From assembly GCA_018333515.1 (NCBI GenBank), contig JAGXSZ010000002.1:1-37673 (forward strand): a DNA stretch of 37,673 nucleotides. Reading direction: 5' to 3'. This DNA comes from Actinomycetota bacterium (lineage in GTDB: Bacteria; Actinomycetota; Aquicultoria; Aquicultorales; Aquicultoraceae). Each line of letters opens with the position of its first letter. The first letter of the stretch is position 1. The notes beneath the pieces are model-generated. The model was not told the DNA's origin, made no database searches, and worked only from the letters and a program-made list of their open reading frames with translations. Below are positions 1 to 5,921 of this stretch, piece by piece. Made by a program: the position numbers and the translations under genes.

Positions 1-18
1 GGGGGGGGGGGGGGGGGG
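1..18. other. poly-G run at contig edge (probable artefact)
   Basis: The window opens with 18 consecutive G bases. They sit at the very end of the sequence and would put a proline run into the open frame that crosses them. Homopolymer G at a contig tip is typical of two-colour sequencing dark cycles carried into an assembly, so I read it as an artefact rather than genomic sequence. Confidence 0.75.
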
Positions 19-319
19 TCGAAGCATCCTTCAGACCATCTGTAAGACCATCTGTAGTTTCGCGCAACGCTACGATTTTGTCGGAGAGTTTTTGAGCGGC
101 GGCGTCATCGCGAACTTTCAAGTAATTATGGAGCGCGCTGTTAAGGCTTTGGAACTCGACTCTTTGGTTTTGTACTGAGTCTACTCTGTCTACGGCGAAG
201 GCGAGTTCGCCGACTTTTTCATTGAATTTCTTGAGGTTGAGCAAGCCCATAACACCGATGACAGCCGCCAAAGCGGAGAGAATAAATATGGTTATGAAGA
301 GTTTTTTACCTACCGTCAT
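19..319 (-). CDS. N-terminal fragment of a membrane-anchored helical sensor (chemoreceptor-like)
   Basis: This is an open frame of about 100 codons read leftwards off the window edge. It starts at an ATG (319) preceded by AAGGA at good distance. The product has a short basic N-terminus (MTVGKKLF), one hydrophobic helix at about residues 7-27, then a charged, helical region rich in K, E, D and Q. That is the layout of the N-terminal signal anchor and four-helix-bundle sensor region of methyl-accepting chemotaxis proteins and some histidine kinases. The HAMP and output domains are off the edge, so the output is unknown. It is transcribed divergently from the secreted protein at 582. I am confident that it is a gene and only moderately confident of the chemoreceptor reading. 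Confidence 0.6.
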
Positions 320-502
320 ATGCAAGTCCTTCAAAATCCAATACCGACGTTATGTTTTGGCCGGCGACGCTCTGTTTCTGTATGTTTCTATCGGCAACTT
401 CGGTGATAGACCTAAAACACCTAAAAAAATTTTCGGCGACGCGCACACATGAGCAGCAGGCCCACGCCGACAAGTCGACCTCGGCATGAAATTCGCAACA
501 TC

Positions 503-545
503 CACACACCGTCTTCACACCGTCTTCACATCCGGGGGGTATATT
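503..545 (+). promoter_or_regulatory. 11-bp-spaced direct repeats over a candidate -10 (OmpR-family-type operator)
   Basis: TTCACA occurs at 514-519 and again at 525-530, exactly 11 bp apart, with a degenerate CACACA in the same register at 503-508. A -10-like TATATT lies at 540-545, about 10 bp after the last repeat, so the repeats cover the -35 position. Half-sites one helical turn apart overlapping -35 are the usual pattern for OmpR/PhoB-family activators. The likely target is the gene at 582. The binder is unproven; the OmpR-type regulator at 1377 and the PhoB at the right end are both candidates. Confidence 0.5.
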
Positions 546-581
546 TGGTGTCGCGAGGATTATCCGAGAGGAGGTGCTGAG

Positions 582-1121
582 ATGAGATTTTCAAGAAAGT
601 TTTTGGTCGGGTTGCTCGTGGTGTCGATATCACTTGTAACGGTCGCGGGTATATCCTTCGCCGCGGAGGATAGCGACACAGGGACTACCACATCGGCGAT
701 TGTAAATGGTTGCCGTGGTTTCTTTGGCGGCGCGGCGGATGAGTTGGCGAAACTTCTAGGGCTCAAGTCCGAGGAGATTGTCGAGAAGCGCAATGCGGGA
801 CAGAGCTTGGCGGATATCGCCAAGGCGCGGGGTGTGGAAAAGGACAAAGTAGTAGACGCAATCGTGGATTCGCGTGAGCGATTCCTCGATGAGAAAGTTG
901 AAGCAGGCTACTTAACTGAAGAGCAAAAGAACCAAATGTTGGAGAGAATGAAGTCAAGAGTGCGGGAACGCATAGAAGACCCCGCGGTCGGACCCGGAGG
1001 CGGTAGAGGCGGCGGCGGTTGCGGTATGGGTGGCCCCGGCGGCGGCCCGGGCATGAGGGGCGGCAGAGGCCCTGGTGCCGGATTTGGCGACGCTTCGGCG
1101 GTCACACCGACCAATCTCTAA
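582..1121 (+). CDS. secreted protein with LTEEQ-type helical domain and Gly/Met/Cys-rich tail
   Basis: The ATG at 582 follows a strong GAGAGGAGG ribosome-binding site. The 179-residue product has a Sec signal peptide (basic start, hydrophobic residues 8-22, likely cut after SFA at 26-28). A helical domain follows at about 50-133, with the pattern LG-L-S-EE, QSLADIAKARGV and a LDEKVEAGYLTEEQ segment, which I recall from small exported proteins of Actinobacteria and Chloroflexi. The tail (about 138-168) is almost entirely glycine with Met, Arg and Cys147; another Cys is at 43. It sits just upstream of a two-component system and may be an envelope or metal-stress accessory of it, by analogy with CpxP/Spy. 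That role is inference. An earlier in-frame start at 486 lacks a ribosome-binding site. Confidence 0.75.
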   Translation: MRFSRKFLVGLLVVSISLVTVAGISFAAEDSDTGTTTSAIVNGCRGFFGGAADELAKLLGLKSEEIVEKRNAGQSLADIAKARGVEKDKVVDAIVDSRERFLDEKVEAGYLTEEQKNQMLERMKSRVRERIEDPAVGPGGGRGGGGCGMGGPGGGPGMRGGRGPGAGFGDASAVTPTNL

Positions 1122-1135
1122 GTTGACAATAAATA

Positions 1136-1155
1136 TGCCGACCGAATGGTCGGCA
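1136..1155. other. stem-loop after the secreted-protein gene
   Basis: TGCCGACC and GGTCGGCA form a perfect 8-bp stem with a GAAT loop 14 bp after the stop codon. No T-run follows, so it may be a 3'-end stabiliser or weak terminator rather than a canonical intrinsic terminator. Confidence 0.5.
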
Positions 1156-1272
1156 AGCGGCGGCAACAATCGGCTTCACGGTGAGCGCTCCGAGGCGAGA
1201 TGCTCATAGTGATGCCGATTGTTATATTTTACCGTGTTCTTGCCGGCCGGCGCGGCGGTCGATATCAAGATG

Positions 1273-1301
1273 TTTCGGTAAGTTCCGAAATAGTATATAT
1301 T
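1273..1301 (+). promoter_or_regulatory. candidate promoter with overlapping dyad for the regulator-kinase operon
   Basis: TTTCGG (1273-1278) and CCGAAA (1285-1290) form a 6-6-6 dyad. A -10-like TATATT lies at 1296-1301. TTTCGG is 17 bp from the -10, so it also occupies the -35 position, where the match to TTGACA is poor. A repressor or activator site over a weak -35 would fit. Confidence 0.3.
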
Positions 1302-1376
1302 GGGGACGAACGGCACGGCACGAAATGGTCCGCCATGTTTTTAAACTAGGGACCGATGTAAGGTGTTGATTTATCG

Positions 1377-2072
1377 GTGGGCAAGAACACAATACTCGTC
1401 GTCGACGATGAAAAGGAGATAGTCGAGGTTTTAGCGGCCTATTTGGAGCGCGAAGACTACGAGGTCTTGAAGGCCTATGACGGCCGGGCGGCACTCGATA
1501 TTGCGCGACGAGACGAGCCCGACCTTATCTTGCTCGACTTGATGCTGCCGGAGGTAAACGGGTTTGAGGTCTGCAAGTTGTTGCGCGCGACCTCGTCGGT
1601 ACCGATAATCATGCTCACCGCGCGAGATGAAGAGACCGATAAGATTTTATGTTTAGAGGTAGGCGCGGACGACTATATCACGAAGCCTTTTAGTCCGCGC
1701 GAGGTGTTGGCAAGGGTGAGAGCGGTATTGCGGCGCGCGGTCGGCGAGGTCGCTAATACCGAGAAGTTACGGCTAGGCGAAATCGCCATGGACCTGGCCA
1801 AGCATGAGGTGACCAAAGCGGGTGAGGCTATCGCGCTTACTCCTACGGAATTTAAGTTGCTCGAAGCGATGGCGAGAAATCCCGGCAGGGTCTTTACCAG
1901 GCTTCAGCTGATCGATTACATACAAGGGTATTCTTTCGAAGGATACGAGCGGACAATCGACGCGCATGTTAAGAATCTTCGCCAGAAGATAGAGGCCAAC
2001 CCGAAGAGACCGCGGTATATCGTAACCGTCTTCGGTGTCGGCTATAGAATGGAGGAAAGCGACGATGAGTAG
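1377..2072 (+). CDS. OmpR/PhoB-family response regulator
   Basis: The 231-residue protein has an N-terminal receiver with acidic residues D10/D11, phospho-acceptor D54 (LLDLMLP), T81 and K103 (ITKPF). A winged-helix DNA-binding domain follows at about 130-228 (LTPTEFKLLEAM, RTIDAHVKNLRQKI, VFGVGYRME). It starts at GTG 1377; TAA at 1359 blocks any earlier in-frame start, and AAGGTG lies upstream. It overlaps the kinase gene by 8 nt, so the two are translationally coupled. The kinase at 2065 presumably phosphorylates D54. The TTCACA repeats before the 582 gene are a plausible target. Confidence 0.95.
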   Translation: MGKNTILVVDDEKEIVEVLAAYLEREDYEVLKAYDGRAALDIARRDEPDLILLDLMLPEVNGFEVCKLLRATSSVPIIMLTARDEETDKILCLEVGADDYITKPFSPREVLARVRAVLRRAVGEVANTEKLRLGEIAMDLAKHEVTKAGEAIALTPTEFKLLEAMARNPGRVFTRLQLIDYIQGYSFEGYERTIDAHVKNLRQKIEANPKRPRYIVTVFGVGYRMEESDDE

Positions 2073-3255
2073 TTTAGCCGCGAGGCTTACGATTACATTT
2101 ACGCTGATCGCGCTGGTTTCGATTACCGCGGTCTCGGCGATAATCAACCGGGTAATCGGTCTACAGTTCAATGACTATCTTATAAGCGGACCCTTTGCCG
2201 GGCAGGCGGGCGGGCATGGCGGTATGCGCGCGCGGATGTTGGCCAACCTTATCGGCCCGTTAGAGGAGGGTTTTCTGCAGTCGGTCAACGAATGGATTTG
2301 GATTACCGGCATCGTGACCGCGTTGGTCGCGGCGCTTTTCGGCGTTTTGTTCGCCAAGCGCTTAACGGCGCCGTTGCACGAGCTTGCGGCAGCCGCAAAA
2401 AAAATAGCCCAGGGTGACTTAACCCATCGCGTCGAGGTAAACACGAAAGACGAAATCGGGCAGTTGGCGACCTCTTTCAACAAGATGGCCGTGAGTCTCG
2501 AGAGGAATAACCAGCTTCGCCGGCGGCTGCTCGGAGATATCGTTCACGAGCTGAAGACACCGTTGACTGTGGTGCGCGGCAATATCGAGGCCATGCTCGA
2601 CGGGGTGATAGAGCCGAGCCAAAAGAAGCTGGCCGCTATCCACACGGAGACTTTGCTTTTGTCGAGGCTTCTAAATGACTTAAGAGACCTCGCGCTGGCC
2701 GAGGAGAAGCAACTCCGACTCGAAAAGGAGCGCGCCAATATCGGCTATATCATCCGGCAGGTCGTCGAGATGTTCAGGCCGAGGGCCGTCGAGGAGTCGA
2801 AGCGTCTCGAAGTGGAGATAGGTGAGGACTTGCCGCCTGTCAATGTCGATAGCGATAGGATTAGCCAGGTGCTCTATAATCTAATAGCCAACGCGTTTCA
2901 GTATACGGCGGGCGGGGATACGGTTAAAATCAGCGCTACGGTCGACTGCACGATAGGCGGAGGCGTCGATAACCCCGCGGTTTTGGTTTCGGTCGAGGAT
3001 TCGGGCGAAGGGATATCCAAGGAAGACCTTCCGTACGTATTCAATCATTTCTATAGGGTCGATGAGTCGCGGGCGCGTGTGTCGGGCGGCTCCGGCATCG
3101 GCCTGGCGATAGTCAAGCATCTGGTCGAGGCGCATGGTGGACGGGTCTGGGCGAAGAGCGAGTTGGAGGCAGGCAGCATTTTCTCGTTTACGCTACCCGC
3201 CATCCAAGCCGGTGAGCACAACGACGGCGTGATGGGAGAGCGGGCGGCTGTCTAG
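2065..3255 (+). CDS. sensor histidine kinase with Gly/His/Met-containing periplasmic loop
   Basis: The ATG at 2065 overlaps the regulator stop (ATGAGTAG) and has GGAGGA upstream. The 396-residue protein has TM1 at about 8-28, an extracytoplasmic loop at about 29-76 with a GQAGGHGGM cluster, TM2 at about 78-98, HAMP to about 150, HisKA with H161 (DIVHELKTPL), and a HATPase domain with an N-box (NLIANAFQY), a G1 box (DSGEG) and a G2 box (GIGLAIV). It is a complete, active-looking orthodox kinase. The short loop with Gly, His and Met echoes the Gly/Met-rich tail of the secreted protein at 582. A metal or envelope signal is possible but not shown. Confidence 0.95.
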   Translation: MSSLAARLTITFTLIALVSITAVSAIINRVIGLQFNDYLISGPFAGQAGGHGGMRARMLANLIGPLEEGFLQSVNEWIWITGIVTALVAALFGVLFAKRLTAPLHELAAAAKKIAQGDLTHRVEVNTKDEIGQLATSFNKMAVSLERNNQLRRRLLGDIVHELKTPLTVVRGNIEAMLDGVIEPSQKKLAAIHTETLLLSRLLNDLRDLALAEEKQLRLEKERANIGYIIRQVVEMFRPRAVEESKRLEVEIGEDLPPVNVDSDRISQVLYNLIANAFQYTAGGDTVKISATVDCTIGGGVDNPAVLVSVEDSGEGISKEDLPYVFNHFYRVDESRARVSGGSGIGLAIVKHLVEAHGGRVWAKSELEAGSIFSFTLPAIQAGEHNDGVMGERAAV

Positions 3256-3424: not shown

Positions 3425-3973
3425 ATGGGAAACCTCACGAAGAAAGTCAAAAAGAAAAAGAGCCGCAAGGCCAAGGCTAAGTTTACCTCACTGGTCGTAA
3501 TCGCCACAACGGTCGCTTTTCTTAACGCCGCTTCTTCCGTATACCTGCGCGAGATTTATAACATAAAGACCTTGCTTCCGTCATGGGGCCTGAACAAACA
3601 GGACATCGTTTTTAAATTCGGCGACTTGATGGTATTAAAGCAGGACCTCGCCCTCAAGATACTCGTAGACATGAACCTTCTGGCAACGGAGCAGATACGT
3701 CAAGTCGCCATGTTGGCGCTGGTAGGAGCCGCCGTATACATGATAGGGAAGAAATGGAGCGAACGCGTCTCCTTGATGTTTTTTGTCGTCGGATTGTGGG
3801 GCGTTCTTTACTATGCGTTTCTCTACGCTATTATTAAGTGGCCGACCTCTCTGCTCTCTAAAGACGTCATCGCGCTTGTGCCGATGCCGGTTATCGTCCC
3901 TGTGTATATGCCTCTAATGCTGAGCGCGCTCACCCTTATCGCGGGCCTCTTTCTTATCCTTAGAAGCAAATAG
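3425..3973 (+). CDS. conserved four-helix membrane protein of unknown function
   Basis: The 182-residue protein has a strongly basic N-terminus (KKVKKKKSRKAKAK) and about four hydrophobic segments, near residues 21-41, 92-108, 115-139 and 145-178. No enzymatic motif is visible and I do not recognise the family. Positive residues at the N-terminus predict that it faces the cytoplasm. The TTG three bases before the ATG is in frame; I chose ATG 3425, although the ribosome-binding site is weak. It stands alone between the two-component operon and the AcuC promoter. Confidence 0.7.
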   Translation: MGNLTKKVKKKKSRKAKAKFTSLVVIATTVAFLNAASSVYLREIYNIKTLLPSWGLNKQDIVFKFGDLMVLKQDLALKILVDMNLLATEQIRQVAMLALVGAAVYMIGKKWSERVSLMFFVVGLWGVLYYAFLYAIIKWPTSLLSKDVIALVPMPVIVPVYMPLMLSALTLIAGLFLILRSK

Positions 3974-4048
3974 TCTTCTGAAATCTTGCCGCTTGAGCGT
4001 AAAATGCGCCTTGTCTTCGAGAGACACCCAGCCGCGGGCACCTGCTTT

Positions 4049-4077
4049 TTGTCAAAAACTCAAGCCCTCTGTATAAT
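4049..4077 (+). promoter_or_regulatory. strong sigma-70-type promoter for acuC
   Basis: TTGTCA (4049-4054) and a perfect TATAAT (4072-4077) are separated by exactly 17 bp. The expected start near 4084 gives a leader of about 40 nt containing AAGGGTGGAGG before the ATG at 4124. It is the best promoter match in the window. Confidence 0.8.
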
Positions 4078-4123
4078 GTGGGATAGCTGTTTTGGGACTA
4101 CTTCGGGACAAAGGGTGGAGGCA

Positions 4124-5347
4124 ATGGATCAGAAGGGTTTATGTGCCGGCGGCGGCGAATCGGTTGCGTTTATCTATGGCGATGAATTCTTAGATTACAA
4201 TTTTTCACCTTCGCACCCACTTCAGCCTATTCGCTTGATGTTGACCTATGAGCTATTAAAGGCCTATGGCGTGTTTTACAAACCTCAGGTAAGGCTGTTG
4301 CCCGGTCGTATGGCGACCGATGAAGAGCTGCTGGGGGTACACACGGCCCGCTATATCGAGGCGGTAAAGAAAATAAGTGAGACCGGCGATGCGTTCGGGG
4401 ACCCGTCGATGTACGGCGCCGACGATTCGGTGTACGGGCCGAAGTTTGGCATAGGCGCCGGCGACAATCCGGCATTCAAAGGTATGCACGAGGCGGCGGG
4501 TCTTATTACCGGAAGCGCGATAGTCGCGACGGAAATGGTAATGAGCGGACAGACGGCTCACTCGGTCAGCATCTCGGGAGGGCTTCATCACGCTCTTGCC
4601 GACCGAGCCTCGGGTTTTTGCGTCTATAACGACCCCGCTTGCGCTATCGATTACGCCGTCAAACACTACGGCGCGCGCGTTCTATATATCGACATCGATG
4701 CCCACCACGGCGACGGTGTCCAATGGGCGTTCTATGATCGCTCCGACGTCCTGACCCTATCGCTTCACGAGAGCGGACGCTACCTTTTCCCTGGGACCGG
4801 CTTTATCGAAGAGATTGGAACGGGCGAGGGCGAGGGCTATTCGGTAAACGTCCCATTCGAGCCCGGGATTTATGACGAGCTATACCTGCGAGCTTTCGAC
4901 GAGGTGGTCCCGCCGGTTGTCCGGGCGTTCAAACCCGACCTGATTGTCTCGCAGAACGGTTGTGATTCCCATCATACCGACCCTCTGGCGAGCATGAGCC
5001 TGACTACCAACGCCTATGAGCATATGTACGCGAGAATCCATCAGCTGGCCCATGAGGTTTCGGGAGGCAAACTGGTCGCCCTCGGGGGTGGCGGGTATCG
5101 GATATATGAGGTCGTGCCGCGAGCATGGGCGCTCCTTACCGCCGAGGTCGCCTCGGTCGGTTTAGACGATGACCTTCCGGGGCCGTGGCGCGAAATGTGC
5201 GCGAGCCACGCCCGTTTTGAATGCCCGCGCAAGTTGCGCGATGAGCCGATTGCGGGGGCCGCGGCGGACCTTCAGGCAAAGACCGAGCGGACCATCGAGC
5301 AGGTAAAGCGACAGCTCTTCCCATATTTAGGACTGGGCACCGGCTAA
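4124..5347 (+). CDS. acuC: AcuC-like histone-deacetylase-fold amidohydrolase
   Basis: The 407-residue enzyme belongs to the arginase/deacetylase superfamily. Catalytic and zinc residues of class I deacetylases are in place: tandem histidines H155-H156 (GGLHH), D192 and H194 (DIDAHHGDGV), and D281 (NGCDSHHTDPL). GFCVYND at 164-170 is the usual active-site lining. In Bacillus, AcuC deacetylates and so reactivates acetyl-CoA synthetase; neither that enzyme nor the acetyltransferase is in the window, so the substrate here is open (acyl-lysine proteins or polyamines are both possible). I chose ATG 4124 because it has an excellent ribosome-binding site and lies downstream of a strong promoter; the frame continues upstream to 3986 without support. 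Confidence 0.9.
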   Translation: MDQKGLCAGGGESVAFIYGDEFLDYNFSPSHPLQPIRLMLTYELLKAYGVFYKPQVRLLPGRMATDEELLGVHTARYIEAVKKISETGDAFGDPSMYGADDSVYGPKFGIGAGDNPAFKGMHEAAGLITGSAIVATEMVMSGQTAHSVSISGGLHHALADRASGFCVYNDPACAIDYAVKHYGARVLYIDIDAHHGDGVQWAFYDRSDVLTLSLHESGRYLFPGTGFIEEIGTGEGEGYSVNVPFEPGIYDELYLRAFDEVVPPVVRAFKPDLIVSQNGCDSHHTDPLASMSLTTNAYEHMYARIHQLAHEVSGGKLVALGGGGYRIYEVVPRAWALLTAEVASVGLDDDLPGPWREMCASHARFECPRKLRDEPIAGAAADLQAKTERTIEQVKRQLFPYLGLGTG

Positions 5348-5435
5348 ACCGCAAGGGTTCGTTCGGAGACTCACCGTCTTAGCGCGACGCGACGCGATAT
5401 TGACAAAAGAGGCTAAGCGCAATACTCTTTTTACC

Positions 5436-5921
5436 ATGGGCAAATACTCGATACATGTCGAAAAAGATTATCTAAAATTCAGTTCCGCTCATTTCTTGAT
5501 ATTCGGCGAGAAGTGCGAGCGTCTGCATGGGCACAATTATGCGGTATCCGTCGATTTGGAGGGTGAACTCGACGATATCGGCTATATCTTCGACTTTACA
5601 GTTCTTAAGGAATTTGCGGAGAACCACTGCGACGAACTCGACCATAAGACGCTCATACCCTCCAAGAACGACCTGGTCGCCATAGCCGAATCGAACGGCG
5701 CCGTCGAGGTGGTATTCAGGGATAAGCGGTTCATATTTCCGGCATCGGATGTCTTGATTTTGCCGATAAAGAACTGCACAGCCGAATTGCTCGCGTTTTA
5801 TCTATCGGAGAAGATACGCGAGGACCTTCTCGATATGCGGGCGGACAATATAACCTCGATTACGATAGGCGTCGAGGAATCACCTGGTCAGACTGCGTAT
5901 TATAAACGGGATATGCTGTAA
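5436..5921 (+). CDS. queD: 6-carboxy-tetrahydropterin synthase (QueD-type), long form
   Basis: This is a PTPS-fold enzyme of the pre-queuosine/deazapurine pathway converting dihydroneopterin triphosphate to carboxy-tetrahydropterin. Zinc ligands H19, H31 and H33 are visible, and C27 sits in the C-x3-HGH spacing that marks QueD rather than PTPS-II or PTPS-III. A glutamate lies in VEESPG near the C-terminus. At 161 residues it is longer than the usual 120 or so because of an insertion around residues 85-110. I chose ATG 5436, which gives the normal family N-terminus. The frame opens at TTG 5400, where TTGACA could equally be a -35 element. No queC, queE or queF is nearby. Confidence 0.85.
   Translation: MGKYSIHVEKDYLKFSSAHFLIFGEKCERLHGHNYAVSVDLEGELDDIGYIFDFTVLKEFAENHCDELDHKTLIPSKNDLVAIAESNGAVEVVFRDKRFIFPASDVLILPIKNCTAELLAFYLSEKIREDLLDMRADNITSITIGVEESPGQTAYYKRDML

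Follow-up and report, generated by a model that had tools for sequence, protein, structure and literature searches.

A probable tandem-box operator upstream of an exported protein gene and an OmpR-type two-component system in an Actinomycetota bacterium: a candidate envelope-stress circuit

The window analysed here is the whole 37,673-nucleotide stretch of contig 2 (positions 1-37673) of an Actinomycetota genome. It opens with a run of 18 G (1-18), probably an assembly or sequencing artefact, and with a gene encoding a chemoreceptor-like membrane anchor (assigned by eye; 2-334, minus strand) that is cut by the contig start. The locus under study has these parts:

492-535, plus strand: four tandem 11-bp boxes, the probable operator of the 1377 regulator (from sequence, conservation in nine genomes, lag-11 statistics and a model search)
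492-502, plus strand: box 1, TTCGCAACATC, with the hexamer TTCGCA
503-513, plus strand: box 2, CACACACCGTC, degenerate
514-524, plus strand: box 3, TTCACACCGTC, with the hexamer TTCACA
525-535, plus strand: box 4, TTCACATCCGG, with the hexamer TTCACA
540-545, plus strand: -10-like TATATT, 9 bp after the last TTCACA and four bases after box 4
582-1121, plus strand: gene for an exported 179-aa protein with a signal peptide (by eye), a helical SLADIA/LTEEQ core and a Gly/Cys-rich tail
1122-1376, plus strand: intergenic stretch with hairpins (minimum-energy folds, no shuffled control)
1377-2072, plus strand: OmpR/PhoB-type response regulator with receiver and Trans_reg_C domains, above the Pfam curated cut-offs
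2065-3255, plus strand: sensor histidine kinase with an outer loop of about 50 residues and HAMP, HisKA and HATPase domains, above the Pfam curated cut-offs

The initial annotation had placed an OmpR-type regulator and a kinase after the 582 gene, and both were recovered at 1377-2072 and 2065-3255 as adjacent genes with the Pfam domains of an OmpR/PhoB-type two-component system. The start of the kinase gene overlaps the stop of the regulator gene (2065 versus 2072), and the solved chains closest to the regulator by sequence are RegX3 and MtrA. Beyond the kinase, positions 3425-5921 hold genes for a small membrane protein, a histone-deacetylase-like (AcuC-type) protein and a 6-pyruvoyl-tetrahydropterin-synthase-like protein (the last two assigned by eye); the small membrane protein and AcuC-type genes lie behind the kinase in relatives too. 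In five relatives a gene for a 264-276-residue membrane protein (by eye) separates the kinase from the conserved gene that follows (L108, 3749-4579; L109, 711-1505; L110, 8219-9025; L111, 4411-5238; L113, 3284-4078); the window lacks it, the gap there being 166 bases. Hairpins 3′ of the exported gene were found in four of four genera examined, with sequences that differ between genera (no shuffled control), and the same gap in genus g5 holds a perfect long inverted repeat. An Rfam search of the whole window at the gathering threshold returned two tRNAs and no match within 1122-1376, and the hairpins of this stretch were set aside.

The boxes are direct repeats in an 11-bp register immediately upstream of the -10-like element, and no -35 consensus was seen by eye at the usual distance. 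Three half-sites in an 11-bp register had been described in the initial annotation; the repeats, their place and their register were borne out, while the number of boxes was revised to four. Four boxes that stop 9 bp short of a -10 element, in a promoter lacking a -35, make up the arrangement typical of activated promoters, as in PhoB-type activation. Alignment of nine orthologous promoters (genera g1, g4, g5 and g6) gave an ungapped 58-base block with 26 invariant columns. The pattern TTCACA-N5-TTCACA occurs three times in the 2.33-Mb, 40-contig genome, compared with zero for the pattern read backwards, and the two copies outside the window share one 7-kb contig (contig 4 of G000; L253, also L002 and L003). 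Contig 4 has a GC content of 0.57, versus 0.54 in the window, and carries its own two-component system, transporter genes that are MacAB-like by eye, and TTCACAGCAANTTCACAGG repeats, found both ahead of these transporter genes and close to the end of the contig; the contig may be of foreign origin.

The 582 gene is preceded by a GGAGG ribosome site, and its product has a signal peptide with predicted cleavage at ISFA-AED, as judged by eye. The protein sequence was compared with the claims made for it in the initial annotation: the two cysteines were confirmed, at positions 44 and 147 and nowhere else in the protein, whereas the tail, said to be Gly/Met-rich, is instead Gly/Cys-rich. The 44-residue C-terminal tail contains 21 Gly, 2 Met and 1 Cys, and across 12 aligned homologues the tails contain 10-26 Gly, 1-4 Cys and 0-2 Met, with Cys147 invariant in all 12. 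Three more distant homologues (L117, L118 and L120) have no tail cysteine, so the Gly/Cys tail is limited to the nearer homologues rather than being a feature of the whole protein family. DUF2680 (PF10925), the domain of YckD, matched residues 93-132 at E 0.0014 and 19.2 bits, below the cut-off of 25, and matched 8 of the 12 homologues at E≤0.01; this is a weak likeness, and the SLADIA half and the tail of the 582 protein lie outside the matched stretch. The Pfam domains of the CpxP/Spy/ZraP accessory family are LTXXQ and Metal_resist. Neither was among the matches of the 582 protein at E≤1 or of the 12 homologues at E≤0.01, and judged by Pfam the exported protein is not a member of the CpxP/Spy family. 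A sequence search of solved structures with the 582 protein gave a best E of 0.015, which was taken as coincidental. The single-sequence structure model had a mean pLDDT of 66.5; a fold search with this model returned no PDB match at E≤0.001, and in a VIA fold comparison with 298 chains the best Z was 4.2, among unrelated proteins, with Spy and CpxP absent from the matches listed; these results fit equally the presence or the absence of the intertwined helical fold of Spy. The viral contigs searched held no relative of the protein. Of the 396 genomes sampled across the phylum, at least 61 hold a homologue; eight candidates per genome were scored for most genomes, so that homologue counts are lower bounds.

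Within the bacterial family, the exported gene was found in 9 of 11 genomes (divided between two contigs in G002). The regulator adjoins it in all nine, and in eight the kinase is in the same stretch as well; the exception is G001, where the regulator is cut by the contig end and a different contig carries the kinase. Outside the family, a regulator and a kinase lie within 2.5 kb at 21 of 61 homologue loci, against an expectation of 1.19 regulators, calculated from the number of Trans_reg_C matches per genome. These 61 are all listed homologue loci outside the family less L123 and L124, which are weak and have no profile match. Linkage was seen in 10 of 26 families and in three gene orders (exported-regulator-kinase, regulator-kinase-exported and divergent), and 38 of the 61 loci have neither a regulator nor a kinase within 2.5 kb, some of them being cut by contig ends. 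The Poisson figure for the linkage, 2e-19, overstates the case because the loci lack independence (family f34 alone supplies 10 of the 21); ten families and three arrangements do not overstate it, and on this sequence evidence the linkage is not due to chance. The initial annotation would have been contradicted by homologues that are never linked to such kinases and lack the repeats; the neighbourhood check instead found linked loci, with repeats. Searching 80 listed loci of related regulators (40-59% identity) with the profile at E≤1 gave no homologue of the exported gene; these regulators are not orthologues, so this result shows only that this exported partner is absent beside most such regulators.

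The repeats upstream of the homologues were quantified by scoring repeated 7-base windows at lags of 8-25 in the 180 bp upstream of each homologue, with first-order Markov shuffles as the reference (excluded were L208, two paralogues from G008, L115 and L121, and L108, a contig fragment). The set of 22 kinase-linked loci outside the family takes in L161, which has a kinase only before the contig ends and is outside the linkage count of 21, and L182, which was counted as linked on a short regulator fragment. At lag 11, a match of at least 6/7 was found in 17 of the 22 loci (shuffles 4.5), several of them off-motif, and a 7/7 match in eight (shuffles 0.4). Lag 22 was next, with 13 loci (shuffles 3.9), and the remaining lags gave 1-8 loci (shuffles 3.9-4.9). 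Of 292 control genes lying in the same stretches, 17% reached at least 6/7 and 1.7% reached 7/7 at lag 11. The nine family loci all passed the lag-11 test (shuffles 1.6), and among homologues without a neighbouring kinase 18 of 38 passed at 6/7 or better (shuffles 7.6), many of them off-motif. TCA-type boxes in an 11- or 22-bp register are visible by eye in 15 of the 22 linked loci, and were not seen by eye in L122, L165 (10 bp), L169, L174, L182, L185 and L190. The wording of the boxes varies with lineage (TTCACA, TTCATA, TTGACA, CTCTCACC or TTCTCAC, by eye), and the boxes are kept even where the exported gene is third, behind the kinase (for example L120, L167, L180, L203 and L205). By these repeat patterns, the operator recurs in a looser form across the phylum.

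The nine family promoters of the exported gene served to build an operator model (R1), with which 14 genomes were searched, up to 150 candidates being scored in each (150 of 276 in the window genome). R1 matched at E≤1 in 13 of the 14 genomes. Nine of the matches are the promoters from which the model was built and are found by construction, which leaves G004, G005 and G011 as the informative genomes. G005 has no exported gene but has the regulator and the kinase, the latter 65% identical across the 212 residues used in the search. Ahead of its regulator stands a four-box operator that keeps the 9-bp gap, at a distance of 236 bp from the regulator start. G004 and G011 have neither the kinase nor the exported gene, and the R1 search gave no match below E 0.1 in either (best E 0.174 in G004, none in G011). 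In these few cases the operator appears to travel with the regulator rather than with the exported gene. Eight further matches with E <0.05 are all upstream of an ORF, among them L115; the gene in G009 runs off the contig, and the ORF on contig 14 of G005 begins at a distance of 205 bp and does not belong to the theme shared by the other targets. Of eight inspected matches with E >0.05, seven are inside ORFs and one is the promoter of an HtrA-type gene in G005. In the window genome the 582 promoter was the only match at E≤1 among the 150 of 276 candidates scored. L115, on contig 78 of G008, is an additional copy of the exported gene, not linked to the regulator and kinase, that keeps TTCACAACTTCTTCACA upstream (R1 E 1.9e-4) and has no TANNNT at +9; its sequence suggests that this promoter may be controlled in trans by the same regulator.

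TTCAYA-N5-TTCAYA occurs at 34 sites in the 11 family genomes, at least five of them inside ORFs; TANNNT is present at +9 in 14 and absent in 20, compared with 0-3 of the 34 sites at each of 20 other offsets (3 to 23). Of these 14, seven belong to promoters of the exported gene, and the remaining seven stand before genes for SHOCT-type small membrane proteins (G005, G006, G009 and G010), the regulator (G005), a MacB-type permease (G001) and an HtrA-type protease (G007); the G009 gene, which runs off its contig, was read as SHOCT-type from the resemblance of its start to that of the G010 gene. A second HtrA-type gene, in G005, is preceded by three boxes with CATAAT at this 9-bp spacing, and two further sites, without a -10, lie before an HlyD-type gene (G007) and a NapC/NirT-type cytochrome gene (G003). 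HtrA-type genes also lie within 4.1 kb of 7 of the 61 homologues outside the family, in four families (0.68 expected), and HlyD or MacB genes lie near three homologues (both near L119 and L186, HlyD alone near L197; no control). By eye, neither of the two HtrA-type genes in the window genome has such boxes within its 200 bp of upstream sequence.

Taken at the level of sequence, the repeats are probably the operator of the 1377 regulator, and a link between this promoter and this regulator is very likely. As the operator in relatives precedes regulator, HtrA, MacB and SHOCT genes, a theme of envelope or export stress is favoured with fair confidence; envelope stress had been raised in the initial annotation, and gains from these genes under the operator and from the HtrA genes near homologues. 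The best explanation, to which we give a probability of roughly 0.55, is an OmpR-type two-component system with an exported partner, acting through the tandem-box operator. Four tandem boxes in the place of a -35, a fixed geometry and conserved linkage are seen directly in the DNA. The two-component system would watch the cell envelope or protein export; the phosphorylated regulator would bind the boxes as two tandem dimers and bring RNA polymerase to the TATATT promoter, which would turn on production of the exported helical protein. PhoP of M. tuberculosis binds as a tandem dimer to TCACAGC direct repeats with a 4-bp spacer, an 11-bp register, and its cooperative binding reaches trimers and tetramers on proper repeats (PMC4832192). 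The exported protein, which is probably the controlled outer partner of the neighbouring sensor, might in turn bind the outer part of the kinase, or misfolded clients, and damp the kinase. This is the most speculative step, and feedback on the kinase, proposed by analogy with CpxP and CpxA, is rated at somewhat under even odds.

The exported protein may instead be a stress-response effector only (a chaperone, an adaptor for a protease or a wall protein) that leaves the kinase unaffected, which we consider doubtful but worth weight. The operator and linkage data also fit such an effector, and six homologues without a neighbouring kinase (L166, L183, L184, L191, L192 and L198) lie near an HtrA-type gene. 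The exported core is conserved while the kinase outer loops differ greatly, so a single conserved contact surface is not evident. Linkage to the regulator and kinase in three arrangements, with the exported gene having its own repeats when it is third, is however what would be expected of a dedicated partner.

Sensing of a metal (Cu, Ag or Zn), with the Cys/Gly tail and a Met/His-rich kinase loop binding the metal, is improbable. ZraP and CusS are the comparison systems for metal binding. The invariant Cys147 and the 1-4 cysteines of the aligned tails are consistent with this idea, as are the outer loops of seven family kinases (46-54 residues, versus 118-141 in 16 measured elsewhere), which contain 2-6 Met and 1-3 His per ~50 residues; among the 16 loops outside the family, those of L116 and L119, two kinases from the same class, contain 7 and 5 Met. 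However, the positions of the Met and His residues are not fixed, the other 14 loops hold 0-4 Met per 118-141 residues, L117, L118 and L120 lack the tail cysteine, and the targets in relatives (HtrA, MacB, SHOCT and the regulator) include no metal pump. The GQAGGHGGM cluster noted earlier in the kinase loop is present but confined to the genus; with neither this cluster nor the tail Met conserved, the metal hypothesis of the initial annotation is not favoured. Metal or redox sensing through the tail cysteines may still play a part.

Further OmpR-type regulators besides PhoP read TTCACA-like 11-bp repeats. That the boxes belong to another such regulator (for example a PhoP/RegX3-like one), the neighbourhood being only positional, would fit the reading of such repeats by PhoP (PMC4832192), the eight Trans_reg_C matches in the genome and RegX3 as the closest solved relative, but is very unlikely given that the operator stands before the regulator in G005, is absent along with the kinase in G004 and G011, and was matched once among the 150 candidates scored, out of 276, in the window genome, unlike a global regulon.

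The preferred reading, a two-component system with an exported partner under its tandem-box operator, resembles several known systems. In E. coli, CpxP is an inhibitor of CpxA that stress displaces, and it acts together with the DegP protease (PMC4160245). CpxP-CpxA-CpxR is alike in its exported helical accessory, cognate two-component system and envelope-stress role, whereas the 582 protein has no Spy/CpxP Pfam match, has a Gly/Cys tail and comes from a different phylum, and its feedback on a kinase is proposed by analogy. HbpS-SenS-SenR of Streptomyces likewise joins a secreted third component to a two-component system, within the Actinomycetota, but HbpS is octameric and haem- and iron-related, and no such domain was found in the 582 protein. 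CutRS/CssRS and MprAB, the secretion and envelope stress systems of Actinomycetota, are two-component systems with HtrA targets: CutR targets htrA3 and htrB, and C. glutamicum MprA targets htrA (PMC12802291, PMC12113857) and also binds upstream of cg0625, which encodes a secreted protein (PMC12113857). Their motifs (TAWATAAA for CutR, TKTTAAGAAM for C. glutamicum MprA) are unlike TTCACA, and the word "accessory" is absent from the CutRS paper (PMC12802291). M. tuberculosis PhoP is alike in its TCACA-containing direct repeats, 11-bp register and tandem dimer, and unlike in its regulon.

No report of an association between this exported protein and a two-component system was found in the open-licence literature, as judged by listings; the components are of known kinds, and it is their combination, an accessory-type partner of an OmpR-type system, for which no prior report was found. 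A tentative extension is that the SLADIA/LTEEQ proteins, unrelated to CpxP, could be its convergent counterpart, a phylum-wide third feedback component of OmpR-type envelope-stress systems, with each member under its own tandem-box operator. The uncharacterised exported family gains a concrete candidate role, as partner or output of the neighbouring kinase, and a searchable operator, the geometry of which (last box, 9 bp, TANNNT) provides a rule for finding members of the regulon in uncultured relatives. If the feedback is true, actinobacteria would own an independently evolved accessory that tunes the sensing of envelope stress.
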